Positions 15,432 to 33,568 of a stretch of 35,802 nucleotides of DNA are shown here, piece by piece. The stretch spans positions 1 through 35,802 of the IMG/VR virus record IMGVR_UViG_3300006754_000060. One strand, given 5' to 3'. This DNA comes from a virus. The position numbers and the translations under genes were made by a program. The stretch's first letter is position 1. Every line of letters starts with the position of its first letter. The notes under the pieces were generated by a model. The model worked only from the letters and a program-made list of their open reading frames with translations. It had not been told where the DNA came from and made no database searches.

Positions 15432-15845
15432 CTATAAGAATTCAGGGTCTATTGGTATCTTAAAGAACAATTCTCCCTCGGGGATATACTTGTTCTTAAC
15501 TTCAACGGGTTCTATCTCTTTAACGATAAAGCTATTGAATGAGATCAGGTGGCTGAACTCCCGGTTCCAGATGCAGAACAGGGTGGGCATATCTAGGTTG
15601 AAGTATTTAGACTTCCTGTAGGGCAGGTGAACGTCCTTATAGGGGAACTCTTCCCCGGTCCACACATACTTGCATTCGACTTCTACATAGAAGCAGTCGG
15701 GGACAATGAGATCCACACCATACCTGTCCGGGTTCTCTACAGCATTAATACCTAGATTGCCTAGATATTCGATTGTTTTAAGTTTCGCAGTGAAATCGAA
15801 TTCTTGGTGAAGGTCTTCATCGAATTCTTTACGTGGAGAATACAT
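15432..15845 (-). CDS. PD-(D/E)XK nuclease-like small protein
   Basis: The preferred start at 15845 gives 137 residues beginning MYSPRKEFDED; an upstream ATG at 15893 would add 16 residues that look unlike a protein N-terminus. A helix (KLKTIEYLGNLGI) is followed by YGVDLIV, then YVEVECK. This gives the D45 ... E57-X-K59 arrangement of PD-(D/E)XK nucleases, with a later beta strand (TLFCIWN). That order fits a restriction-endonuclease-like fold. The target is unknown; it could process phage or host DNA. It is the last gene of the minus-strand early operon and meets the late block tail to tail at 15396/15432. The fold is a motif-based inference. Confidence 0.6.
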   Translation of the reverse strand: MYSPRKEFDEDLHQEFDFTAKLKTIEYLGNLGINAVENPDRYGVDLIVPDCFYVEVECKYVWTGEEFPYKDVHLPYRKSKYFNLDMPTLFCIWNREFSHLISFNSFIVKEIEPVEVKNKYIPEGELFFKIPIDPEFL

Positions 15846-15925
15846 GGGGGTCTTGGGTTTAATAAAGGTAAAACAAACAAACCCTGCCCACATTACTGCT
15901 AAAGCTCACCAAGCACCCCCATTAA

Positions 15926-16159
15926 TTATTCTTTACTCTGCTTCGGGGGACTCTTCGTGTCGAGTTCTTTCTCTAACTGCAGGATCTCCTTGGAACTCAT
16001 CTTGCTGACCTTCGTGTCGGCATTCTCTTGGCACTTCTTAAAAAGGAAGTTGCACATCTGGGCCATAGTTATGTTGTTCAACATAACCTCAGCGAGTTTG
16101 GCTTTAAGATTCCTGATTCTGTCTGTACCTATTTTCTCTTCTTTCTTTATTTTCTTCAT
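15926..16159 (-). CDS. Small charged helical protein, function unknown
   Basis: Seventy-seven residues starting MKKIKKEEK. I chose the ATG at 16159 because AAGGAG lies 7 bases upstream on the minus strand; a longer in-frame version begins at 16204 but has no such site. The protein is very Lys/Glu-rich and predicted helical, with a central hydrophobic stretch (LAEVMLNNITMAQMCNFLF). I recognise no domain. Its first 56 bases overlap the 3' end of the HNH gene in another frame. Confidence 0.5.
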   Translation of the reverse strand: MKKIKKEEKIGTDRIRNLKAKLAEVMLNNITMAQMCNFLFKKCQENADTKVSKMSSKEILQLEKELDTKSPPKQSKE

Positions 16160-16496
16160 CCGTTTTCTCCTTGTGACATTTTTTACATAAAACTTGTAAC
16201 CCATCCAGAGGACAAAAGAGTCTCTTGTCGATCACGTTCCAATCCCAGTCCTCATTATCCGCCCAGTCAAGTGGAACAACTGACTCGATGTGATCTACAG
16301 ATACTCCTTTTACAGGGAAGGTCCCCTTGCATGATCTACACCTATACTCATTACGCATCCTCTTGGTCTTAGGATTGAGTTTACGACCCACGAGGGCCTT
16401 ACCCCTTGCCTCATACTTCAAAGGGTTCCTAGCCCCCCTCCAAGCTGCCAGCTTAAAGAGTCTCCAGCGAGACTGGGTCCATGGTTTCTTCTTCAT
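16104..16496 (-). CDS. HNH endonuclease
   Basis: The protein has 130 residues. Zinc-knuckle cysteines C53-X2-C56 (YRCRSCKG), the catalytic-strand motif VDHIESV (D68-H69), and the second pair C104-X2-C107-H108 (LQVLCKKCHKEKT) form a complete HNH/treble-clef nuclease. The N-terminal basic segment (SRWRLFKLAAWRGARNPLKYEA) is typical of phage HNH proteins and probably contacts DNA. It may be a free-standing homing enzyme or a replication-associated nicking enzyme; there is no separate T7-gp3-like resolvase visible, so a structural role in DNA processing is possible. It lies 3 bases downstream of the preceding gene's stop and overlaps the next gene by 56 bases. Confidence 0.85.
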   Translation of the reverse strand: MKKKPWTQSRWRLFKLAAWRGARNPLKYEARGKALVGRKLNPKTKRMRNEYRCRSCKGTFPVKGVSVDHIESVVPLDWADNEDWDWNVIDKRLFCPLDGLQVLCKKCHKEKTDEENKERRENRYRQNQES

Positions 16497-16498
16497 TA

Positions 16499-16702
16499 TT
16501 AAATGTCCTCGATGATACGACGGATTTGTTCGTAAGGCAACCCCAAGTATAAGGCAACCTTAGCTACGTCCTCTTCGTTTAAATACTCTGACAGGAATAA
16601 CTCCTCCAAGAGTTTGAGTGGAGTGTATTTCATATGTGCTGCCAGTATACAAACTGCTTCTGACAATTCTTCTGGATCGGGTGGTGAGATTGTTGTTATC
16701 AT
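16499..16702 (-). CDS. Small acidic helical protein, unknown
   Basis: Sixty-seven residues starting MITTISPPDPEEL at 16702; an upstream ATG at 16768 would overlap the HNH gene and adds residues of poor quality. The C-terminal half (LNEEDVAKVALYLGLPYEQIRRIIEDI) reads like a short helix-turn-helix or helical-bundle element, but no family is recognised. No Shine-Dalgarno sequence precedes the start; an A/T-rich leader does. It sits between two HNH genes in the tightly packed early operon, so expression by translational coupling is likely. Confidence 0.5.
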   Translation of the reverse strand: MITTISPPDPEELSEAVCILAAHMKYTPLKLLEELFLSEYLNEEDVAKVALYLGLPYEQIRRIIEDI

Positions 16703-16709
16703 TTTTAGA

Positions 16710-17006
16710 TTAATTTTTATAGTGGTGAAGTCGGTGACAGTTGGCACAAAGGATGATGCATTTCTCAACTTCTTTCTGTAGGCTAACCAGCGGAACGGTG
16801 CCTTGCACGAGACTTGCTATGGTTGACACCTTATTTATTGGATTGAGATGATGCAGATCCAAGCACAAAGGGTCATAGATTTTCCCGCAACGAGAACATG
16901 GTTTATTGCATTTATATTCATTCAACCATTTTCTTTTTTCAGCAGTCCTACGGAGGTGCCACTCACGCTTGTATTCACGTTCTTGTTCAGGGTCAGTGTA
17001 TGGCAT
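16710..17006 (-). CDS. HNH endonuclease (short form)
   Basis: The protein has 98 residues. C37-X2-C40 (CSRCGK), LDLHHLNP (D50, H52-H53) and the closing CIILCANCHRLHH (C87, C90, H91) form a standard HNH domain that occupies most of the protein. The N-terminal part (PEQEREYKREWHLRR) is highly basic and acidic, as in phage-borne HNH homing enzymes. It starts 1 base after the stop of the 122-residue gene upstream, whose 3' end carries the 13-bp sequence (17021-17033) also found before the other homing gene (17910-17922). This suggests mobile insertion at a shared target. Likely a nicking or cleaving endonuclease. Confidence 0.85.
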   Translation of the reverse strand: MPYTDPEQEREYKREWHLRRTAEKRKWLNEYKCNKPCSRCGKIYDPLCLDLHHLNPINKVSTIASLVQGTVPLVSLQKEVEKCIILCANCHRLHHYKN

Positions 17007-17007
17007 T

Positions 17008-17376
17008 TCATTTTCTTATAGGTAAGGGTTTTCGTGATGAAGGTAAAGGTATTGTACCTCGATGACCCTCTTGTCGTTTTGTTTGCTCTATCACTTCATC
17101 TCTTTCAACCACTGTCCGGTCCTCGGGCTTAACAGGAATAGGTCTAAACTCAAAGTCCCATCCCCTGTTAAGAAGGGTGGAGCGATTGGTCACCACCTGC
17201 TGGGGTCCCTGCTTCCTCCTCGCCTCATTATAATAGAGGTATCGATCTGATTGTGGGACCCAATGACCTTTGTCAATCAGGTAGTATTCGTGCAGGTAGG
17301 TTCCCCTCTCGGGGATGTCAGTTTTGTCAGAGATGGTGGAGGATTGTATCACAAATCTTTTAGTTTTCTTTATCAT
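17008..17376 (-). CDS. Unknown basic protein between two homing-endonuclease genes
   Basis: The protein has 122 residues and no recognised domain. It is rich in Arg, Lys and Pro with little predicted helix; the start MIKKTKRFVIQSS overlaps the upstream AP2/HNH gene by ATGA. The start region carries AAACCAAATA shortly before the ATG, a leader found before two other early genes. The last residues (SSRKPLPIRK) repeat the RKPLP that ends the RecB-like nuclease gene at 17906. It may be a phage core gene split from its neighbours by inserted HNH genes; the sequence does not say what it does. Confidence 0.5.
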   Translation of the reverse strand: MIKKTKRFVIQSSTISDKTDIPERGTYLHEYYLIDKGHWVPQSDRYLYYNEARRKQGPQQVVTNRSTLLNRGWDFEFRPIPVKPEDRTVVERDEVIEQTKRQEGHRGTIPLPSSRKPLPIRK

Positions 17377-17906
17377 TTTATATTTGGTTTAGGTTGATTC
17401 AGTGCTTCAGGGTTGAATCCATATTGTATGGCTGCCTTGTTATAGGCTCTTGCTGCCTCTGCCTCATCAACAAAGTAGCCAAGGTGTTTCTGTTTCCCAG
17501 CCAAGGTGATGACAGCCGTCCATTTCTTCTTATCCTTACGCCAAGAGACACCTCGGAATCTAGAAGTGCATCCCTGCGCCTTGGTTCTGAAGCTTCTGCT
17601 ATTCCCTTGATGGGTTACCATTCTCAGATTTGATACGTAGGTTTCTTTCTTCACCCCATTGATGTGGTCTACCTCTAAACTCTCATCCCAATCAGGGAGA
17701 AAGGCTTTGGCAACTAGACGTGGAATGCGGTGAAATTTTTGTCTTCCTCCTTTGCAAAGCCCAATTCGCCAGTAGCCATTATTGCCATGGGTTTGGGGTT
17801 TTAGAATCTTAGTCTTGTTAAATTTCAGGGATCTAACCCCGCCTCGGTTGGAGACTTGATAGTCTCTGTCATAACCAACAACGTCTTTCCATATTTCTTT
17901 GTTCAT
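17373..17906 (-). CDS. Homing endonuclease: NUMOD4 + HNH + AP2
   Basis: The protein has 177 residues and three recognisable parts in order. A NUMOD4-like N-terminus (IWKDVVGYDRDYQVSNRGGVRSL, about 5-28) leads. An HNH_3-type nuclease follows (about 58-102: HRIPRLVAKAFL, then EVDHINGVKKETYVSNLRMV with D80, H81, N83, N93). Last is an AP2/ERF-like DNA-binding domain (about 115-162: RFRGVSWRKDKKKWTAVI, then LGYFVDEAEAARAYNKAA). This is the classic architecture of free-standing phage homing endonucleases, which cut a phage genome lacking the gene and spread by repair. It overlaps the nuclease gene upstream by one base and the next gene by ATGA, so it is inserted with almost no disturbance of the operon. 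Confidence 0.93.
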   Translation of the reverse strand: MNKEIWKDVVGYDRDYQVSNRGGVRSLKFNKTKILKPQTHGNNGYWRIGLCKGGRQKFHRIPRLVAKAFLPDWDESLEVDHINGVKKETYVSNLRMVTHQGNSRSFRTKAQGCTSRFRGVSWRKDKKKWTAVITLAGKQKHLGYFVDEAEAARAYNKAAIQYGFNPEALNQPKPNIK

Positions 17907-18691
17907 TAGGGTAAGGGTTTTCTATCAGGGGCATGTAGCCTGTAGATGTCGTCGTAATGGTTAATGTAAAACTTGGCTTCGATGGCTGCCTTTTCAACAG
18001 CAGTGTCTGTCCATTTCTTTGCATAGGTTTCCCCGGAGTTGCTGTCAATAATGACAGTGTAGACATCAGGCCGATAGGATAATTTCATCTTATGCATAAC
18101 CATCTCGGCTTCAATGGCCAGTTGCATACAGTCGGAGGTGTAAGCTTTCTTGGATATACCGCTGTCCCCTGCTTCCCGGGTCTTATAATCAAACAGGCAC
18201 ACCTTACCATTGTGCGTTGCTATTAGATCCACCTGACCTACTGTGTTGTAACCAGCGACAATACTCTCGCATGAAACGACACTGAACTGGTTTGTTTTAA
18301 ACCACTCCAAGAACGGTTTAACGAATTTCTCATATGGTTTATTGGACCATCGTTTCTTAAACTTTAAAAGATTGAGGGCATCCTCCAGTTGTTTATGCAC
18401 CAAGGTGCCAAATAGAGAAGTGAGGATCTCCTCCCCTGTTTCGGGATGGACCCTCACTCCATAGACCCGAGCAACTATTTCAGGGATCGGAAGGAGAGGA
18501 TACTTACGGGCCAGTCTCGCAGCCTCCTCCTTCCCCCACTTCTCTAGGTAGGGTTTGGGGCAGATGGCTAGTTTGGTGGTCACACTGGCGACAACCCTTA
18601 CGCCTGACTCTACAAGCTTTCTCGCCTGCGGTGGAGTTTCAACATCGGTCCTCAAGAACGGACCATTAATTGAGATTTCGTAAAAATGCAT
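17906..18691 (-). CDS. RecB/Cas4-like PD-(D/E)XK exonuclease
   Basis: The protein has 261 residues. The RecB-type nuclease motifs appear in order: GTLVHK with H99, GQVDLIA with D155, LFDYKTR with D168-X-K170, and the QLAIEAEM motif with Q190. Together they form a complete metal-dependent nuclease site. I see no four-cysteine iron-sulfur cluster as in Cas4 or AddB, so this looks like the cluster-free phage form. Such enzymes sit beside primase-helicase and SSB genes in many marine phages and probably serve as recombination or replication exonuclease. The gene starts 65 bases after the SSB-like gene, across a strong hairpin, and its 3' end abuts the homing endonuclease. Confidence 0.88.
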   Translation of the reverse strand: MHFYEISINGPFLRTDVETPPQARKLVESGVRVVASVTTKLAICPKPYLEKWGKEEAARLARKYPLLPIPEIVARVYGVRVHPETGEEILTSLFGTLVHKQLEDALNLLKFKKRWSNKPYEKFVKPFLEWFKTNQFSVVSCESIVAGYNTVGQVDLIATHNGKVCLFDYKTREAGDSGISKKAYTSDCMQLAIEAEMVMHKMKLSYRPDVYTVIIDSNSGETYAKKWTDTAVEKAAIEAKFYINHYDDIYRLHAPDRKPLP

Positions 18692-18720
18692 AGGTGTTTA
18701 ATTTTATATTAAAGTTCAGA

Positions 18721-18744
18721 GGGGTAGCCCCCATTGGCTACCCC
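18721..18744 (-). terminator. Strong hairpin between SSB-like and nuclease genes (attenuator candidate)
   Basis: GGGGTAGCC and GGCTACCCC form a perfect 9-bp stem with a 6-base loop, 12 bases after the stop of the SSB-like gene. No U-run follows on the minus strand, so it is not a classic intrinsic terminator. It may partly stop transcription or protect the SSB mRNA 3' end, giving more SSB than nuclease. Confidence 0.5.
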
Positions 18745-18755
18745 AAAACAATGGA

Positions 18756-19337
18756 TTAGAATGGGTTTTCCTCAAAGGCCACAGGTGTGGGTTCCTTTTT
18801 GAATTCCAATTCCTTTCCGCTTCTCAAGGCATCCCCCACTTCAAGGATAGCCGTTGCAAGGGCAAACAATGTCTGCTTGTCGCAGTCAGTTCCGTTGGTC
18901 ATGAAATCAGCAGCCTTATTCAGAGCCTGTCCGATCTCAATCCCCCGTGTGTTCTTTGTGTATTGCCCCTTGATGTTGGACAGGTTGGCAAAGGACGTTA
19001 CCTGTCCTTGGGGAGTATTATCCTGACTCATGGCATACCTCGGTTTGTTGTCCCATTCTGAACCGTCATCCTTCAATCGATTGACTGATATTTCGGGGTT
19101 TCCGTTGTTCGCTAATCGAGGATTACCGTTGCGATCCGTCTTTTCCGTGATGGAAACCTTGGTTCCCGGCGTGGTATAGAACGGCTCAGTTGATTTGGCC
19201 ATGGATATTCCCTCGAAATCATCTGTGCATTTGACCCACAGTTCATAGAGGTCTCCCACATTCGGGATGTTCTTTGTTTTTGGGGAACCATCTTCTTTTT
19301 TCATGATCTCCACTTTTTCTATCGTTTTTATCGGCAT
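18756..19337 (-). CDS. Single-stranded DNA-binding protein (probable)
   Basis: The protein has 193 residues. The N-terminal part is beta-rich and could form an OB fold (VGDLYELWVKCTDD, TKVSITEK segments); the C-terminal part is helical and ends in an acidic-hydrophobic tip, PVAFEENPF. This resembles the DDDIPF-type tail by which bacterial and phage SSBs dock partner proteins. Its position directly between primase-helicase and a recombination nuclease supports an SSB role. The gene begins 14 bases after the primase stop, with AACCAAATA 5 bases before the ATG instead of a Shine-Dalgarno sequence. No signature pattern proves the fold, so the call rests on tail, size and context. Confidence 0.6.
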   Translation of the reverse strand: MPIKTIEKVEIMKKEDGSPKTKNIPNVGDLYELWVKCTDDFEGISMAKSTEPFYTTPGTKVSITEKTDRNGNPRLANNGNPEISVNRLKDDGSEWDNKPRYAMSQDNTPQGQVTSFANLSNIKGQYTKNTRGIEIGQALNKAADFMTNGTDCDKQTLFALATAILEVGDALRSGKELEFKKEPTPVAFEENPF

Positions 19338-19351
19338 GATCTTATTTGGTT

Positions 19352-21199
19352 TTAATACAAACCCTCCGTGGGTTCGTAGGTTATGATTGGTGTTAGTGAA
19401 AATTTCCTCTTCTCGGTATCGAACCAGAGGTCCTTCTCGAAATTGTCTCCGGTTGCTCGCTGCTTAAACACAGTGAACTTACCGTCACACTTCTTGGACC
19501 ACACCTTCTTCTGCTCCTCGTCATCGCCACTCATAATGAGTCCTTTCTGGGTGTTGCGCCAGCAGGAGAAGATGGTGTGAGCAGCAGCCCCGGTGTCCTG
19601 TGACCCGAGTATATCAGAAGGAGACTTGGGAGGATACTTACCCCCTTGATCCATCTTCTTCCCATCGCTGTGAGCAATGAGGAGGATGGTCATCTGCTCC
19701 TTGACTGCTAATCGTTGCATCGATTTAATAATCAGAGACTGAAGATCGAACGCCAGTTTTGGAGCCAAGTACTGGAACGAATCGATCAGAACAAAACTCA
19801 CCCCCCACTTCTGTTTGGCGAACCGGATGTTCTCCTCCACTCCTTCCCAGTTGTGTTTGATGGATTTGAATGAGGAGGAGTCCATGAAGAAGATGTTGTC
19901 AAAGTCCTTGATGATCTCATCTTGGTTCTCGTAGGTGGGTGCTTCTTCAGCATGTATGTGTGCCAGATTCCACAGCATGTTAGGGATGGTAATCTCGAAG
20001 CTGATAGCCAGACTCTTACGGTTCTGTTCCAGTGCTTGATGAAGGAGGATTTCATAACAGAGCTGAGATTTCCCATGCCCGGGCAGGCCTGTTGCTATTA
20101 TCAATTCGCTAGGTCTCAGACTCAAGGGCACATCCCAGATAAAATTACGGTGTTCTTTCTCCTGCTCGTAGCGGGTGATCTCATCGGTGAGTTGGACATT
20201 GAACTCATTGGCCTTGGACAGGGTGGCAAGGGTGTGTCCCTCTGCCTCGTGAATCAACGCAAAGAGATCCTGATAGGTGGGTTTGGCCTCCAGATACCAT
20301 TGATTAACATCGTTATACTCCAATGGAATGGACAGACGTTTAACCCTGTCCACTCCAAGTCGCTCTCCGAGCTTTAAGAATAGCTGATCTCCCGCCGAGT
20401 CATTGTCACAGCAGGAGAAGATGGTTTCCAATCCGCTGAGAGTTTGAAAGTTGTTGCTGATCCAATCCATGTTGCTCACTCCACAAGGGACGCTGAGTGC
20501 AGGTATGGCTGTGTCCTCCGAAGTCTCAGGAATCCCGGACTGGATGGCATCCAGACTCATGGCATCGATCTCACCTTCCGTCAGAAGGATGGACTTGCTG
20601 TCGTCAATGGTGTTCAAACCAAACAGCGACCAGAACGGTGGTTTGCTGGTAAAGATCTGCTTCTTAGATCCCCGTTCGATGTTCGTGCATTTGAACATCC
20701 TGCTCCTTCCTTCCTCATCGTAGAAGCTAGCAGTCCAGAACTCCTTACCGTTCTTCAGGTAAGGCGCCACCCCATACTTGGAGCACACTCGCTCATTGAT
20801 TCCTCGAGCAGCCAGATACTTGGCAGTTTCACTGCCTCTGAGTGCGGAGGTATCCAACTTGGCCTCCACTGCAACCGAAGCCTGCTTAACCGGGTGGATC
20901 TCACTCTGTGAAATGCCCAGCCAGCGTAACGCCCACCTCACGGTGTCGTGGTAGCCTGTCCCACGCTTTCGGATCAGTAGATCGAGAATCCCTAAGACTT
21001 GCCCAGTGGCGTTGTCCTTGGCTACATAAACGTTGGCTTGGTTGTGCAGGTATACCTGAGTGGACCTGCCCGGGTTCCCGTCGAGGTCCCCCATCGTATA
21101 CTTACCTGCCGTCTCCCGCTTTGCATCGGGGAAAACCTCTGACATCAGAGAGTTGATGTTGGCACTCAACCGCACCTTGAGTTCTTGCGGACTAATCAT
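19352..21199 (-). CDS. Primase-helicase (Toprim + DnaB/gp4-type ATPase)
   Basis: The protein has 615 residues. The Toprim domain shows TEGEIDAM (E208) and CDNDSAG (D265, D267). The RecA-like helicase domain shows Walker A GLPGHGKS (371-378) and Walker B VLIDSFQ (470-476), followed by LLIAHSDGKK and a late arginine-bearing segment. This is the bifunctional T7-gp4-like layout: the N-terminal part makes primers, the C-terminal ring unwinds DNA. The first 100 residues lack the paired cysteines of a zinc-binding domain, so template recognition must differ from T7. The start overlaps the preceding small DNA-binding gene by 8 bases. It anchors the replication block, although no DNA polymerase is seen with it. 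Confidence 0.93.
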   Translation of the reverse strand: MISPQELKVRLSANINSLMSEVFPDAKRETAGKYTMGDLDGNPGRSTQVYLHNQANVYVAKDNATGQVLGILDLLIRKRGTGYHDTVRWALRWLGISQSEIHPVKQASVAVEAKLDTSALRGSETAKYLAARGINERVCSKYGVAPYLKNGKEFWTASFYDEEGRSRMFKCTNIERGSKKQIFTSKPPFWSLFGLNTIDDSKSILLTEGEIDAMSLDAIQSGIPETSEDTAIPALSVPCGVSNMDWISNNFQTLSGLETIFSCCDNDSAGDQLFLKLGERLGVDRVKRLSIPLEYNDVNQWYLEAKPTYQDLFALIHEAEGHTLATLSKANEFNVQLTDEITRYEQEKEHRNFIWDVPLSLRPSELIIATGLPGHGKSQLCYEILLHQALEQNRKSLAISFEITIPNMLWNLAHIHAEEAPTYENQDEIIKDFDNIFFMDSSSFKSIKHNWEGVEENIRFAKQKWGVSFVLIDSFQYLAPKLAFDLQSLIIKSMQRLAVKEQMTILLIAHSDGKKMDQGGKYPPKSPSDILGSQDTGAAAHTIFSCWRNTQKGLIMSGDDEEQKKVWSKKCDGKFTVFKQRATGDNFEKDLWFDTEKRKFSLTPIITYEPTEGLY

Positions 21200-21413
21200 T
21201 GTATTGTTTATCTAAAAATTCACCTACGCTTCCACCAACTGAGTCCTTAATCAATCGGTCCTTAGTCTTCTGATCCACCCGAGTATACAATGGCACCCGT
21301 GGTGTGGTCCATTTGATGGGTCGTCCCCGTTTCTTCACTGGTCTGGGTGGTTTCCCGGGTGGGACCAGCTTGTCTATTTTTAAAAAATCCCTGCGGATTT
21401 GGCGTTTGTCCAT
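21192..21413 (-). CDS. Small DNA-binding protein: AT-hook plus ribbon-helix-helix-like
   Basis: Seventy-three residues. Residues 27-35 (VKKRGRPIKW) contain the RGRP core of an AT-hook, which binds the minor groove of A/T-rich DNA. The C-terminal half (VPLYTRVDQKTKDRLIKDS, then GGSVGEFLDKQ) has the strand-helix-helix pattern of MetJ/Arc-type regulators. The start is supported by AGAGAGG upstream. It lies just downstream of the inverted-repeat region 21420-21537 and overlaps the primase-helicase start, so it may autoregulate the replication operon or act in origin recognition. Fold assignment is by pattern only. Confidence 0.6.
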   Translation of the reverse strand: MDKRQIRRDFLKIDKLVPPGKPPRPVKKRGRPIKWTTPRVPLYTRVDQKTKDRLIKDSVGGSVGEFLDKQYND

Positions 21414-21537
21414 TTGTTTTTCCTCTCTGTGTTATAAATTTTATACGGTTTGGGTTAAACTTTTAATAGTTTATGAAAACTTTTCGGATACTAAAAGTTT
21501 GGTATAAGTTTCGGCCGAGTTTATACCAAAAAGCTAG
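21414..21537. promoter_or_regulatory. Regulatory gap with inverted repeats before the primase operon
   Basis: This gap of about 120 bases is A/T-rich and full of symmetry. A 10-bp inverted repeat, TTTGGTATAA (21498-21507) and TTATACCAAA (21521-21530), encloses the palindrome TCGGCCGA (21511-21518). AAACTTTT occurs at 21457-21464 and 21477-21484 and inverted at 21493-21500. On the minus strand, TATAAA near 21441-21446 could be a -10 box for the primase operon, but its -35 is weak. The large inverted repeat sits right after the zinc-finger gene's stop; the minus-strand sequence after it is only weakly T-rich, so an operator is as likely as a terminator. Confidence 0.5.
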
Positions 21538-22005
21538 CTAGGATGGCACAATCAAAGCTGGTGGTGGCAGTCCAATGGATCTCATTGCCTTCTTGAAATC
21601 AGATTCCGAGTAGGGTTGTCCATGAATGTGATCGTCCATCATCTGGAACAACGGACAGTCCGAGTCCCTCGCAGGTAGGTTGTATGCCCACCATATGATT
21701 GATGCCACCCACGAGCGGGTGAAGTCATCACGCACTCGTAACAACCTGTCAGCCCAGTATACCGGGTCCTGTTCCCTGATTGCTTTTACAAACCTAGCTT
21801 TGGTTCGACGTCTCTTCATGGCTACCCTGCACACAGGACACCATCTGCCCCATCGGACACGGAAGATGGGAGCGTCCCACTCGTGGTTGAAATGACACTG
21901 CCACCTCACGGTGGTGCGACAGTTCTCGAAGGTCGTGTCGAGACAGACCCCCTTGTGGGCCTTGGCCGTCTCCCGGATATCGTCAAGAGTCAGTCGTCGA
22001 GACAT
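21538..22005 (-). CDS. Zinc-finger (treble-clef-like) protein, DNA-binding candidate
   Basis: I take the ATG at 22005, giving 155 residues starting MSRRLTLDDIRETAKAHKG; a longer version from 22101 would run back through the upstream gene. Residues 35-59 (VRWQCHFNHEWDAP, then GRWCPVCR) give probable zinc ligands C37, H41, C56 and C59 in the W-x-C...G-x-W-C-P-x-C pattern of phage zinc-ribbon or treble-clef domains that often accompany homing-type nucleases. The rest is basic and helical with no nuclease motif. The start overlaps the preceding gene by 16 bases. Perhaps a DNA-binding regulator. Confidence 0.6.
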   Translation of the reverse strand: MSRRLTLDDIRETAKAHKGVCLDTTFENCRTTVRWQCHFNHEWDAPIFRVRWGRWCPVCRVAMKRRRTKARFVKAIREQDPVYWADRLLRVRDDFTRSWVASIIWWAYNLPARDSDCPLFQMMDDHIHGQPYSESDFKKAMRSIGLPPPALIVPS

Positions 22006-22205
22006 TCGTCGAAGTGTTGAAGTGTTGAAGTGTTGCACGGTGTTTCTGCCACATCGTATATCAGGTTTGAGTTTACAATTGCGGTGGGTTCTGTTCCCCA
22101 CCGCAGGATGACGCAGTCATCGTTGGGAGTCTTAGCAGTATCAGCAAACTCACCCAAGGTGGTGGTGGTTGAGACTGATACCGGTTTAATTTTTTCAGGT
22201 TTCAT
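21990..22205 (-). CDS. Small unknown protein
   Basis: Seventy-one residues from the ATG at 22205. Rich in Thr, Val and Asp with no recognised domain. No Shine-Dalgarno sequence precedes it; the region upstream is the AT-rich repeat tract. Its C-terminus (TSTLQHFDECLDD) is encoded across three copies of an 8-bp repeat and overlaps the zinc-finger gene start by 16 bases. Coding is likely from its fit in the operon but not certain. Confidence 0.45.
   Translation of the reverse strand: MKPEKIKPVSVSTTTTLGEFADTAKTPNDDCVILRWGTEPTAIVNSNLIYDVAETPCNTSTLQHFDECLDD
22012..22035. repeat. Three tandem copies of an 8-bp unit
   Basis: AAGTGTTG is repeated three times without a gap at 22012-22019, 22020-22027 and 22028-22035 (CAACACTT on the minus strand). 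It lies at the overlap of two genes, just upstream of the zinc-finger start. It could be slippage-prone DNA, a binding site array, or chance within coding sequence. Confidence 0.8.
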
Positions 22206-22280
22206 ATTGGGACTGTAAGTATTAAGTATTAGTATTTAATTATTAATAGTTAATAGTATTAGTAATACTAAGATAGAGGT
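22206..22280. repeat. AT-rich iteron-like tract, origin or promoter candidate
   Basis: The tract is almost pure A/T between 22216 and 22270. AGTATTA occurs at 22218-22224, 22225-22231 and 22255-22261, with a variant at 22231-22237. TAGTATTA G TAATACTA (22254-22270) is a perfect palindrome around one base. It lies just downstream of a winged-helix gene and upstream of the next small gene. Repeats plus low melting stability suit a replication origin; a promoter with operators for the 22205 gene is the simpler alternative. Confidence 0.5.
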
Positions 22281-22556
22281 TCATTCTGATACCCCCGAGA
22301 CTATGGTGTAAATGGTGGACTTGTTGTAGCGTTTGTTCCGGGCAATTAACCCACACTCAGATAATTTGTCCAAAGATCGGATGACACTGGACCGTGAGGA
22401 CCACGAGGTCTTGGCGATTGTGTCAACCGAGGGAAAACATTTGTCCTCCCGGCCAGTGTATGATGCCAGAGTTATAAGCACAGCTTTATCGGTAGTGTTC
22501 AGATGGGGAAACGGTTTGGGTTTCTTAGTCCAATATACCAGAGGTTTCCAACTCAT
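22281..22556 (-). CDS. Winged-helix (HTH_36-type) DNA-binding protein
   Basis: Ninety-one residues, nearly all one winged-helix domain. The pattern LNTTDKAVLITLASYTG, CFPSVDTIAKTSWSSRSSVIRSLDKLSECGLIARNKRY matches the helix-turn-helix family typical of phage regulators and replication-initiation proteins; the recognition helix is about SSRSSVIRSLDKL. It starts by ATGA overlap with the acidic small gene upstream. The AT-rich repeat tract immediately follows its stop, which makes it a candidate binder of those repeats. Whether it regulates transcription or starts replication cannot be told here. Confidence 0.8.
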   Translation of the reverse strand: MSWKPLVYWTKKPKPFPHLNTTDKAVLITLASYTGREDKCFPSVDTIAKTSWSSRSSVIRSLDKLSECGLIARNKRYNKSTIYTIVSGVSE

Positions 22557-22816
22557 GTGACTCTTCTGTCGGCGGTGAGTCGCTCCTCCTCCAAGATCCG
22601 GAGGAACATAATGTCCAACTCCTCGTCTGTTGGTTCACGATCCATCTCTTGCATGTCTTGGTGATATGCCTTCTCGTCTTCCTCATCCATCACGACTTTG
22701 ATTGCTGCCGTTGAGAGGGCAGTCTTAATCAACTGCCCCTCGATGGAGTGGTAGGCGTGAGCCTCTTGTTCTTCTTCATGGGCCATGATGGCCTCAAACA
22801 ACTGTTGGTTTTTCAT
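22553..22816 (-). CDS. Small acidic protein, unknown
   Basis: Eighty-seven residues, strongly acidic, helical, with clusters such as AHEEEQEAHAYHS, MDEEDEKAYHQDMQEMD and TDEELDIMFLRILEEERL. No recognised family. Small acidic phage proteins of this kind sometimes mimic DNA or inhibit host enzymes, but nothing here shows that. ATGA overlap couples it to the winged-helix gene. It is the first gene after the noncoding stretch 22817-23116. Confidence 0.55.
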   Translation of the reverse strand: MKNQQLFEAIMAHEEEQEAHAYHSIEGQLIKTALSTAAIKVVMDEEDEKAYHQDMQEMDREPTDEELDIMFLRILEEERLTADRRVT

Positions 22817-23116
22817 ATGGTTATAAATATTGATATTGTTATTAGGGATGTAAAGTAAAAAATTGCACTATTTACCTAAAAAAACAGGGGTATTAGAACG
22901 AGGAGAGTCGGGCAGAGTTACGAGGAGAGGGAACCTCTGACTTGGCACTCGCTGCGTAGCCCCCAGCCTTCCAATCCCAAGGACCCCCGTCAATGGGGGT
23001 CTTTTTTTGTGTACCTTCTAGAACGCCCGCTAATACCCCTAGAAAGCATTCTGTCTGAGAATAGGACTTACCCCCCATGCAATACGCCACAAACGCCACC
23101 TTGCCAACATCAGGGT
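22817..23116. other. 300-bp stretch without a secure gene; possible plus-strand small RNA
   Basis: On the minus strand an open frame of about 61 residues (ATG at 23078, stop 22893) exists but has no ribosome binding site and is crossed by a plus-strand terminator. The plus strand has hairpin AGAGG-GAA-CCTCT at 22926-22938 and a full intrinsic terminator at 22982-23008. A weak plus-strand promoter (TTGATA 22830-22835, TAAAGT 22851-22856, spacer 15) precedes it. A short noncoding transcript of roughly 110-150 bases is possible. The leader and promoter of the minus-strand gene at 22816 must also lie here. Confidence 0.35.
22982..23008 (+). terminator. Intrinsic terminator facing right
   Basis: GACCCCC and GGGGGTC form a 7-bp G/C-rich stem with loop GTCAAT, followed by seven T on the plus strand. 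On the minus strand the stem is preceded, not followed, by the T/A run, so it works rightward. No plus-strand gene lies upstream. Confidence 0.8.
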
Positions 23117-23118
23117 AC

Positions 23119-23150
23119 AAAAAAGCCCGGGTCAATTAAGCCCGGGCTTT
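23119..23150 (-). terminator. Intrinsic terminator of the first early-gene group
   Basis: AAAGCCCGGG (23122-23131) and CCCGGGCTTT (23141-23150) form a 10-bp stem with a 9-base loop; on the minus strand a run of six T follows (23124-23119). It ends transcription a few bases after the 31-residue membrane-peptide gene. Confidence 0.88.
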
Positions 23151-23160
23151 GGTTTTGTGG

Positions 23161-23256
23161 CTACCTTTTCCGCAGTGCCAAGTATAGGATCACTATCAGG
23201 ATAGGTACCGCTACAATCTGCAGTCTGATGAGTATCTCAAGTATGCTTTCAATCAT
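23161..23256 (-). CDS. 31-residue single-span membrane peptide
   Basis: ATG at 23256 to TAG at 23161. The peptide begins MIESILEILIRLQ, continues as a strongly hydrophobic stretch (IVAVPILIVILYLAL) and ends RKR, which fits one membrane span with a positive cytoplasmic end. GGAGG lies 5 bases before the ATG and the start overlaps the upstream stop (TAATG), so translation is well supported despite the size. A strong terminator follows at once. It may be an early membrane effector, an inhibitor of host functions, or a small holin-like peptide; the early-operon position makes a late lysis role less likely. Confidence 0.65.
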   Translation of the reverse strand: MIESILEILIRLQIVAVPILIVILYLALRKR

Positions 23257-23474
23257 TAGGACCTCCAATCTGTTACTGGATTGGCAACGTCAATCTCGTA
23301 ACCAAGCTCTTCTATAATCTTGAGATTGGAATGAGTCAGGGTCTTTTGATTAGGACTTAAACAAGTCAGCAATTTGGCTGAAGTGTTTAAAGGATAGTAG
23401 CGTACGTTTCCATAGCTTTCCCGGCGTTCTATCATTACTATTTTTCGGTCAACATATGTCTGTTTATATGGCAT
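23256..23474 (-). CDS. Small early protein, unknown
   Basis: Seventy-two residues. AAGGAG lies 9 bases before the ATG at 23474. Basic N-terminal half (YVDRKIVMIERRESYGNVRYY) and a helical segment (HSNLKIIEELGYEID). No recognised domain. The stop is shared with the start of the membrane peptide downstream, so the two are probably made together. Confidence 0.6.
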   Translation of the reverse strand: MPYKQTYVDRKIVMIERRESYGNVRYYPLNTSAKLLTCLSPNQKTLTHSNLKIIEELGYEIDVANPVTDWRS

Positions 23475-23475
23475 T

Positions 23476-23697
23476 TTATGAATCTCCTTTCTTGTCTATG
23501 ATGCTGTAGAGTTCGTTTAGTGTCGTTTGCCATAGATTATCATCAAGAGCTCTAATGGGACCTCTATTCAGAAAACCCCCGGTCCTTCCATACTCACCAC
23601 CCTTTGCTTTATAAAGTTTGTGAGCTTCATCTATATCTTTAACCGAAAACTTTGCCCCGTCTTCGATCGAGTAACTTCTTAATACTGTATTTTTCAT
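23476..23697 (-). CDS. Small early protein, unknown
   Basis: Seventy-three residues, starting MKNTVLRSYSIEDG at 23697 with AAGGA upstream. Mixed charged sequence with two helical stretches (VKDIDEAHKLYKAKGG, LWQTTLNELYSIIDKKG). No domain recognised. It is followed 1 base later by the next gene. A typical short phage early gene of unknown role. Confidence 0.6.
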   Translation of the reverse strand: MKNTVLRSYSIEDGAKFSVKDIDEAHKLYKAKGGEYGRTGGFLNRGPIRALDDNLWQTTLNELYSIIDKKGDS

Positions 23698-23723
23698 ATG
23701 TTTATTCCTTCTATTTTTAGTGT

Positions 23724-24410
23724 TTAGTTATTGATCAATTGAAAGGCTTTCTTTGCCCCGGAGCCGTGAAGTGGCACCCATATGTCAGGACCATGCCCGC
23801 CGTTACATATCCCACATTCTGCACACGTTTTACCACGTGTCACATTTAAGCAGGTAGTGAACTTTCCCAAAGGCTTATTCCGGCTAGAATGAAAGACCCG
23901 CAAGCCTTGTGACTTGGCTTCTTCTAAAGATGCCAAGGTATCAGTTGAAGCCATAAAATACCTGTTGTATTTCTTAGCTTTTTGATTCGCTTTCCAGTCG
24001 TGAAAGTAGCCTGTTGTTTTTCCGGCTCGCCGTCTAATCGCTTTCACGATTCGCAAGGGAAGTAGAGAAGGATTCCCATAAGCCCCAAAGCGAACTTCCC
24101 TATCTTGAAAGACAGAATAGTCCTCCAAAGGTGCATAGGACCCATTGTTATAGGCTTTCCACACTGCCAAGGGCGCTTGGCCTAGGTTGACGTAACACCC
24201 GTTGCCACTGGAAAAGGGACACCCGATGCAGATCGTCAAAGCATCAAGCCCGGATTGAATGCCCGCAACCGGGCTTTGATCCACAAGTAAGATCCAAATT
24301 TGGATCATGTCCCCGGTTTTGATATTTGATGAAGCCCGGTTAAACCCCGTTGCAATTACAACGAACCGTTGCCCGTTTGTGATCCCTTTATACAAGATGA
24401 ATCCGTTCAT
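23724..24410 (-). CDS. Cys-rich conserved phage protein of unknown function
   Basis: I choose the ATG at 24410 (228 residues) because AGAGGAGG lies 7 bases upstream; a start at 24446 lacks this. The sequence has the features of a family seen in phages and plasmids: an N-terminal VIATGFNRASSNIKTGDMIQIWIL stretch, then ICIGCPFSSGNGCYVN and LGQAPLAVWKAYNNG, a middle REVRFGAYGNPSLLP, and a C-terminal cysteine cluster (TTCLNVTRGKTCAECGICNGG). The cysteines suggest bound metal, and the second cluster resembles a zinc or iron-sulfur site. The reaction is unknown to me. ATGA overlap with the upstream 62-residue gene. Confidence 0.75.
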   Translation of the reverse strand: MNGFILYKGITNGQRFVVIATGFNRASSNIKTGDMIQIWILLVDQSPVAGIQSGLDALTICIGCPFSSGNGCYVNLGQAPLAVWKAYNNGSYAPLEDYSVFQDREVRFGAYGNPSLLPLRIVKAIRRRAGKTTGYFHDWKANQKAKKYNRYFMASTDTLASLEEAKSQGLRVFHSSRNKPLGKFTTCLNVTRGKTCAECGICNGGHGPDIWVPLHGSGAKKAFQLINN

Positions 24411-24595
24411 GCTTTTACCTCCTCTGAGTGGACAATAGCTAAGCACGCTCTGTTGCTAATGTCTGTTCCATAGACAATAGTTCTGTCTCCTCTTATACTG
24501 TGGACAGTGTAGTCCGTGCCCTCCCTTAAAAGGGCGAATCTCTTTTCGTCCCCATACTTTGAATAAAAGCCTTCGTTTTTTATTTTAATTGTCAT
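24407..24595 (-). CDS. Small early protein, first of the minus-strand operon
   Basis: Sixty-two residues (MTIKIKNEGFYSKYG...). A beta-rich pattern (DYTVHSIRGDRTIVYGTD) with no recognised domain. No Shine-Dalgarno sequence; AACCAAATA stands 5 bases before the ATG and an 8-codon leader ORF stops 4 bases upstream, so it may be translated by coupling. Its last codons (LAIVHSEEVKA) hold the ribosome binding site of the next gene and are echoed by a relic upstream at 24624-24658. Confidence 0.55.
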   Translation of the reverse strand: MTIKIKNEGFYSKYGDEKRFALLREGTDYTVHSIRGDRTIVYGTDISNRACLAIVHSEEVKA

Positions 24596-25084: not shown

Positions 25085-25633
25085 ATGAATGAGCGTAAAA
25101 AAATAATGAGTGGAATAGCCGAGGCTATTAAGGATGTTTCAGGGAAGAAGGAGGTTCAGGGAATCAAGAGTCTAAGTCGTTACAACCCTAACAAGGTGGC
25201 TAAGATCCTGTATCTCCACAGTCAGGGGTTTAGTGTTGGTGGTATTCGCAGGGAGTATGGCTTTACAAAGCACACAATTGTAAGTGTCTTGGTTGATTAT
25301 GCTGATTATGTAGGGAAGTGGAAGGATCTTGGAGCTAAGATTTCTGCGAGGAATTTCTTAAAGCTATATTCTTTACAGGAAGAGATCATTGACAGGGTAT
25401 CTAGGTCTCTTGATGATGAGGACAGTGTGGTGCAAATAAAGGATCTGCTTCCTGTCAGCATTGCCTTGGAAAAGGCTGAGCGGTCTAGTAATCATTTCAG
25501 GGGGGAACCTTCTGAGATAACCGAGGAGAGGCATGTGGTGACGAGGGAGCAGCTAACTGCCACGGAAGAGATGATTAAAAAACGTATGTTAGAATACAAG
25601 AAATCAGATGTTATAGATGTTCCCCCAAAATGA
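25085..25633 (+). CDS. Terminase small subunit (probable)
   Basis: The protein has 182 residues. A helix-turn-helix is visible at about 37-72 (KVAKILYLHSQGFSVGGIRREYGFTKHTIVSVLVDY), followed by a charged helical region suited to oligomerisation. Small terminase subunits bind phage DNA through such a domain, and the gene stands two places before the large subunit at the start of the packaging module. No Shine-Dalgarno sequence; an in-frame ATG at 25106 is an alternative start. The call depends on position plus HTH; a transcription regulator is the alternative. Confidence 0.65.
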   Translation: MNERKKIMSGIAEAIKDVSGKKEVQGIKSLSRYNPNKVAKILYLHSQGFSVGGIRREYGFTKHTIVSVLVDYADYVGKWKDLGAKISARNFLKLYSLQEEIIDRVSRSLDDEDSVVQIKDLLPVSIALEKAERSSNHFRGEPSEITEERHVVTREQLTATEEMIKKRMLEYKKSDVIDVPPK

Positions 25634-33508: not shown

Positions 33509-33535
33509 AAGCGATTAGCAAATAATTACCAAAGG

Positions 33536-33568
33536 GGGAGGTCAGGCCAAAACTGGCCTCCCTTTTTT
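33536..33568 (+). terminator. Intrinsic terminator after the head genes
   Basis: GGGAGG-TCAG pairs with CTGG-CCTCCC (10 bp with one G-U pair), loop GCCAAAA, followed by TTTTTT at 33563-33568. It should end or reduce head-gene transcription. The next ATG is only 4 bases after the T run, so downstream tail genes are probably reached by read-through. Confidence 0.88.

Follow-up and report, generated by a model that had tools for sequence, protein, structure and literature searches.

A rightward terminator without a gene ahead of it, and the short backward RNA that it may end, next to a phage replication operon

Genes and features of the locus

The window, i.e. the whole stretch of DNA analysed, corresponds to a virus record 35,802 bases long, with a G+C content of 43.8%. 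The features discussed here are collected in Table 1. The first gene of the leftward operon has its ATG at 22816 (-), and the second encodes an O-type initiator, as judged by family match.

Table 1. Features of the window near the proposed RNA and the surrounding gene blocks (window coordinates)
Feature	Position	Strand	Remark
Structural and packaging genes (tail-type proteins, terminase, major head protein, endolysin)	either side of leftward block	+	
Replication and accessory gene block	24595 down to 15432	-	
First gene of leftward operon, 87 aa	22553..22816	-	without known family
Winged-helix protein	22281..22556	-	matches HTH_36 and phage replication-initiator / O-like PHROGs
Primase-helicase	19352..21199	-	further along the leftward gene block
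Promoter-like site TTCATA-16-TATTGT	22812..22839	+	weight-matrix scan; TG ahead of -10; start near 22846
Second promoter-like site TTGATA-15-TAAAGT	22830..22856	+	weight-matrix scan; start near 22863
AT-rich stretch before leftward operon	22817..22897	unspecified	25% G+C
GC-rich, ORF-free body of proposed RNA	22898-22978	+	62% G+C; top 0.3% of 81-nt windows
Proposed non-coding RNA, 145-165 nt	22846..23008	+	5' end uncertain, 22846 or 22863; orphan terminator without plus ORF upstream
Orphan rightward intrinsic terminator	stem 22979-23004, T-run to 23008	+	T-tailed hairpin scan
Leftward terminator, ends upstream early operon	stem 23150-23122, T-run to 23117	-	T-tailed hairpin scan
ACGAGGAGAG, two copies 22 nt apart	22898-22907 and 22920-22929	+	only exact copies in window
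11-bp perfect inverted repeat, AGGGGTATTAG / CTAATACCCCT	22886-22896 / 23030-23040		flanks RNA body and terminator

We take the phage to be marine, based on the metagenomes that yielded two near-identical contigs, 3300025097_000069 and 3300006753_002653. The terminase groups the window with many mostly marine-looking viral contigs, the nearest named record being phage C75C1 (OQ984151.1) with a terminase identity of 72%. A terminase scan of genome contigs gave no match by which a host could be named. No lysogeny genes were seen among the genes examined.

Additional observations were made in the early block. Two HNH endonuclease genes were found by family match (16104-16496 and 17373-17906, both on the minus strand), and a further HNH-like frame, recognised by eye only, lies at 16710-17006 (-). 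The protein of 23724-24446 (-) is phrog_2554, a family of unknown function that occurs in phages infecting hosts as diverse as Mycobacterium, Klebsiella and Roseobacter, and it has conserved cysteines. An unlisted hydrophobic reading frame of 31 amino acids, MIESILEILIRLQIVAVPILIVILYLALRKR at 23161-23256 (-), is the last of its operon before the leftward terminator and carries the best ribosome-binding site among the early genes tested. Within 15432-24595 (-) a Shine-Dalgarno site is absent from many early genes and clear in others, and a ACCAAATA-like stretch is found ahead of several gene starts. Such stretches may hint at the host or at an alternative translation start.

Two facing terminators

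A scan for T-tailed hairpins returned only three strong ones in the whole window, namely 22979-23004 (+), 23150-23122 (-) and 33532-33566 (+). The last (dG -22.7) lies directly past the gene that follows the head protein. The rightward hairpin of the facing pair, AAGGACCCCCGTCAATGGGGGTCTTT at about 22979-23004, has a near-perfect stem, a dG of -17.6 and a run of 7 Ts, so that 22979-23008 has the GC-rich hairpin and following U-run of an intrinsic (Rho-independent) terminator. Its leftward partner has a dG of -18.7 and a 6-T run in the leftward direction, and when read rightwards it has a weak tail with a T-run of 4 only. The facing arrangement given in the preliminary description was thereby borne out. 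The hexamer GTCAAT is found at the loops of both hairpins in the same orientation (22989-22994 and 23131-23136), maybe by chance.

Two controls were used for the rightward hairpin. In 100 dinucleotide-preserving shuffles, a mean of 0.04 hairpins per shuffled window had a dG of -17.6 or lower. As coding control we used long ORFs of related phages (409,683 bases in total), where two hairpins reached a dG of -15, both with a T-run of at most 5, and none combined a dG of -15 or lower with a T-run of at least 6. The rightward hairpin is therefore far beyond chance.

Furthermore, the same stem and T-tail with a different loop, GGACCCCC-N6-GGGGGTCTTTTTTTG, recurs in the virus contigs L268 and L270, which are unrelated, approximately 20-25 nt past the stop codon of a gene. 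This is the classic place for a terminator. In the window no plausible plus-strand ORF lies ahead of the rightward terminator, as the sole plus ATG from 22840 to the hairpin directly precedes a TAA. Thus, an intrinsic terminator lacking a preceding plus-strand gene, as first described, is established by the hairpin scan, the shuffles and the reading frames. By the criteria used, 7 of the 47 distinct strong terminators across the phage group have no gene ahead of them, which makes orphan terminators uncommon but not unique in this group. A rightward ORF at 23009-23317 was discarded; it has a negative codon score in the part tested, and a ribosome-binding site is absent upstream.

The proposed RNA and its relatives

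The orphan terminator points to a short RNA made rightward from the region that holds the promoter of the leftward replication operon. Such an RNA, unannotated and with its 3' end near 23008, is probable and is the best reading of the terminator. Of the short plus-strand RNA put forward in the preliminary description, the terminator without a plus ORF stands, whereas the promoter, the transcript and its local effect are inferred.

The 'weak promoter-like pair' reported earlier is present, and the two sites are the best plus-strand ones of the area. As scores that high come about once per kb (approximately 0.9 per kb over both strands), these sites are suggestive only, and the scores assume an E. 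coli-like sigma factor, which may not be that of the host. The AT-rich stretch at 22817-22897 probably holds promoters of one strand or of both. From the leftward promoter-like site closest to the operon (22854-22826), the mRNA would begin at approximately 22819, almost at the ATG, leaving no leader for pairing with the RNA. Two other predicted leftward sites, 22993-22965 and 23107-23079, score better and would give a large overlap with the leader. The plus and minus -10-like sites adjoin at 22826-22839.

On its own, the body of the RNA does not fold more stably than shuffles do (z +0.27), and with the terminator included the z-score is -1.5 to -1.8, i.e. the hairpins noted earlier between 22830 and 22982 lack significance. 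Nor does the body pair in excess with the translation starts of the phage (mean -18.8 versus -18.5 +/- 0.7 in shuffles). Because fold and pairing are both at the level of shuffles, neither these hairpins nor the suggested control of early genes finds support in the computation. No Rfam family matched at the gathering threshold, relaxed thresholds giving sub-threshold and mostly terminator-like matches, and no tRNA or tmRNA was found.

An inverted repeat such as that in Table 1 is present in 2.1% of shuffles and was chosen after the fact; judged by sequence, its arms are possible candidate protein-binding sites. A 17-mer at 23029-23045 shared with L086, where it lies within a short gene, and L052 is probably due to chance (E = 0.04).

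The two near-identical contigs are more than 99.8% identical to the window with zero differences over 22820-23260, and consequently carry no evolutionary information on the RNA region. They were the only nucleotide relatives of this region among phages, plasmids and fetched loci. Scans of viral contigs using the primase-helicase, the 22553-22816 protein, the terminase, the 23724-24446 protein, the 23476-23697 protein, the winged helix and the terminator pattern as queries gave no divergent homologue of it.

Relatives having both the winged helix and the primase at 33-46% protein identity were found (L016, L036, L226, L234, L255-L265). Upstream of the winged-helix gene these are mostly gene-packed and have no comparable strong orphan terminator. 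Hairpins on the opposite strand are weak there, about -10 to -11.5, and lie inside genes where checked (L226, L258). In L016 a leftward terminator is found at a comparable place, together with one weak hairpin (-9.7) in a gap of 161 bp. In another contig, L012, the 23476-23697 gene has a homologue, and a further small gene of similar size and a leftward terminator are also present; the 150 bp that remain up to the contig end contain no rightward terminator. It had been stated beforehand that relatives keeping the flanking genes without the stem would speak against the RNA. The stem is mostly absent, which counts against conservation among relatives as distant as these. On present data, with the replication genes retained in these distant relatives but no orphan terminator of comparable strength, the rightward terminator and RNA element appear to be lineage-specific.

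Rightward terminators in L050, L077, L078 and L079 were considered as counterparts and rejected, as they mostly follow rightward reading frames and look ordinary. A different orphan rightward candidate RNA is found just ahead of the packaging operon in three relatives (L061:3830-4010, L063:8898-9078, L064:2556-2736). It consists of a TTGACA promoter-like site, a hairpin and a strong terminator in that order, with one pair of the hairpin exchanged in a compensatory manner (T-A in L061, C-G in L063). This element resembles a late-operon leader or a small RNA.

Possible explanations and known systems

We tentatively prefer a backward RNA with a local effect on the replication operon, in a layout like that of lambda pO/oop, and rate this reading at slightly less than an even chance. 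The AT-rich region before the leftward replication operon would also fire rightward, from about 22846 or 22863, and the transcript would end at the intrinsic terminator near 23008, giving a non-coding RNA of approximately 145-165 nt that points back from the operon. Its action would most likely be local, with the backward promoter competing with the promoter of the leftward operon. If the leftward mRNA starts above approximately 22960, the RNA would also pair with the operon leader. This reading is backed by a hairpin beyond chance, the recurrence of its stem and T-tail past gene ends in other viruses, the scarcity of orphan terminators in the group, an AT-rich followed by a GC-rich ORF-free stretch, well-placed plus sites, an O-like initiator and a primase-helicase nearby, and the lambda precedent. 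It is weakened by modest promoter-like sites, an ordinary fold of the body, sequence relatives limited to the near-identical contigs, replication-gene relatives without the element and L012 without a rightward terminator.

Insulation, which we regard as rather unlikely, fits almost as well as the lambda-like reading. Leaky divergent transcription from the leftward promoter would be halted before the upstream early operon, the leftward terminator would do likewise in the other direction, and the RNA would be a functionless by-product. Both terminators are located exactly between the two operons, the -10-like sites of the two strands are adjacent, divergent transcription is common at bacterial promoters (PMC10268837), and neither the shuffle comparison nor the phage translation starts revealed a function-bearing fold or target. 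However, a by-product would not need an ORF-free body of 62% G+C, which is unusual for this genome, and the predicted starts, approximately 27 bp apart, lie just outside the 7-25 bp that define bidirectional promoters (PMC10268837).

The remaining explanations are all given a low probability. A replication origin, where the two ACGAGGAGAG copies are initiator-binding repeats beside an AT-rich unwinding region and a rightward transcript activates or primes replication, is improbable: an O-like initiator is encoded next door, the copies are about two helical turns apart and unique there as exact copies, and the flank is AT-rich, but two 10-bp copies are below the usual iteron arrays and too few for this reading to be argued strongly, the window has many other AT-rich stretches, and the GC skew merely tracks gene direction. 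We find it slightly harder still to accept that the hairpin is a chance structure or the relic of a lost rightward gene, with no RNA made. The element is seen in no relatives and the region looks lineage-specific, as such a relic might; against this, 0.04 such hairpins are expected per shuffled genome, and the near-perfect stem with its 7-T run is unchanged between the window and the near-identical contigs. It is very improbable that a leftward gene for a small protein of 61 aa (22893-23078) fills the gap and that the rightward hairpin is accidental. The frame of this gene is open with mildly gene-like codon usage (0.059 per codon, a score that 7% of spurious ORFs reach), but it is a weak candidate without ribosome-binding site or homologue found, and approximately 410 kb of related coding DNA holds 0 hairpins of the quality of the rightward terminator. 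Most far-fetched is a switchable leader, where the rightward transcript would stop early at 23008 (partly at 23149) and antitermination would later carry it antisense across the early operon toward the packaging genes at 25085, turning early genes off and late genes on.

If the backward RNA of the preferred reading is made, the presumably marine phage with no lysogeny gene seen and no cII-like gene overlapped would favour a role of such RNAs in replication or promoter interplay over one in lysogeny. It would also show that, from sequence alone, a terminator with no gene ahead can reveal a small RNA in an uncultured phage.

The locus was compared with known systems. Bidirectional bacterial promoters (PMC10268837) likewise have promoter-like sites of the two strands next to each other within an AT-rich stretch, whereas the spacing between the predicted starts is approximately 27 bp here compared to a typical 18. 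The trans-acting phage sRNAs PreS of lambda and VpdS of VP882 (PMC12197685) are also phage-encoded small non-coding RNAs, but no target was found here and pairing at phage translation starts is not in excess. The short antisense RNAs P22 sar and lambda aQ lie opposite the phage gene that they regulate and pair with the mRNA they control (PMC12197685). The proposed RNA is similarly short and opposite phage genes, but its overlap with an mRNA hinges on the leftward start.

The closest layout is that of lambda, where the promoter pO, immediately before gene O and pointing the other way, makes the short leftward oop RNA; pO lowers transcription from pR, and its loss impairs lambda replication (PMC3985674). 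In the window, a proposed short RNA opposite to the replication operon would likewise begin just ahead of it, at a predicted plus promoter, and end at an intrinsic terminator, and the operon encodes an O-like initiator in both cases (the second gene here). Oop overlaps and silences cII, whereas the RNA proposed here ends at 23008 and overlaps no gene, the nearest upstream reading frame ending at 23161, beyond the leftward terminator. As the defining antisense feature of oop therefore fails, we do not class the RNA as oop, and no sequence relation to lambda oop was found. By analogy of layout, the proposed RNA may nevertheless work like pO/oop, and if made it would, like oop in lambda, be a further example of a short transcript directed away from the operon of a replication initiator.
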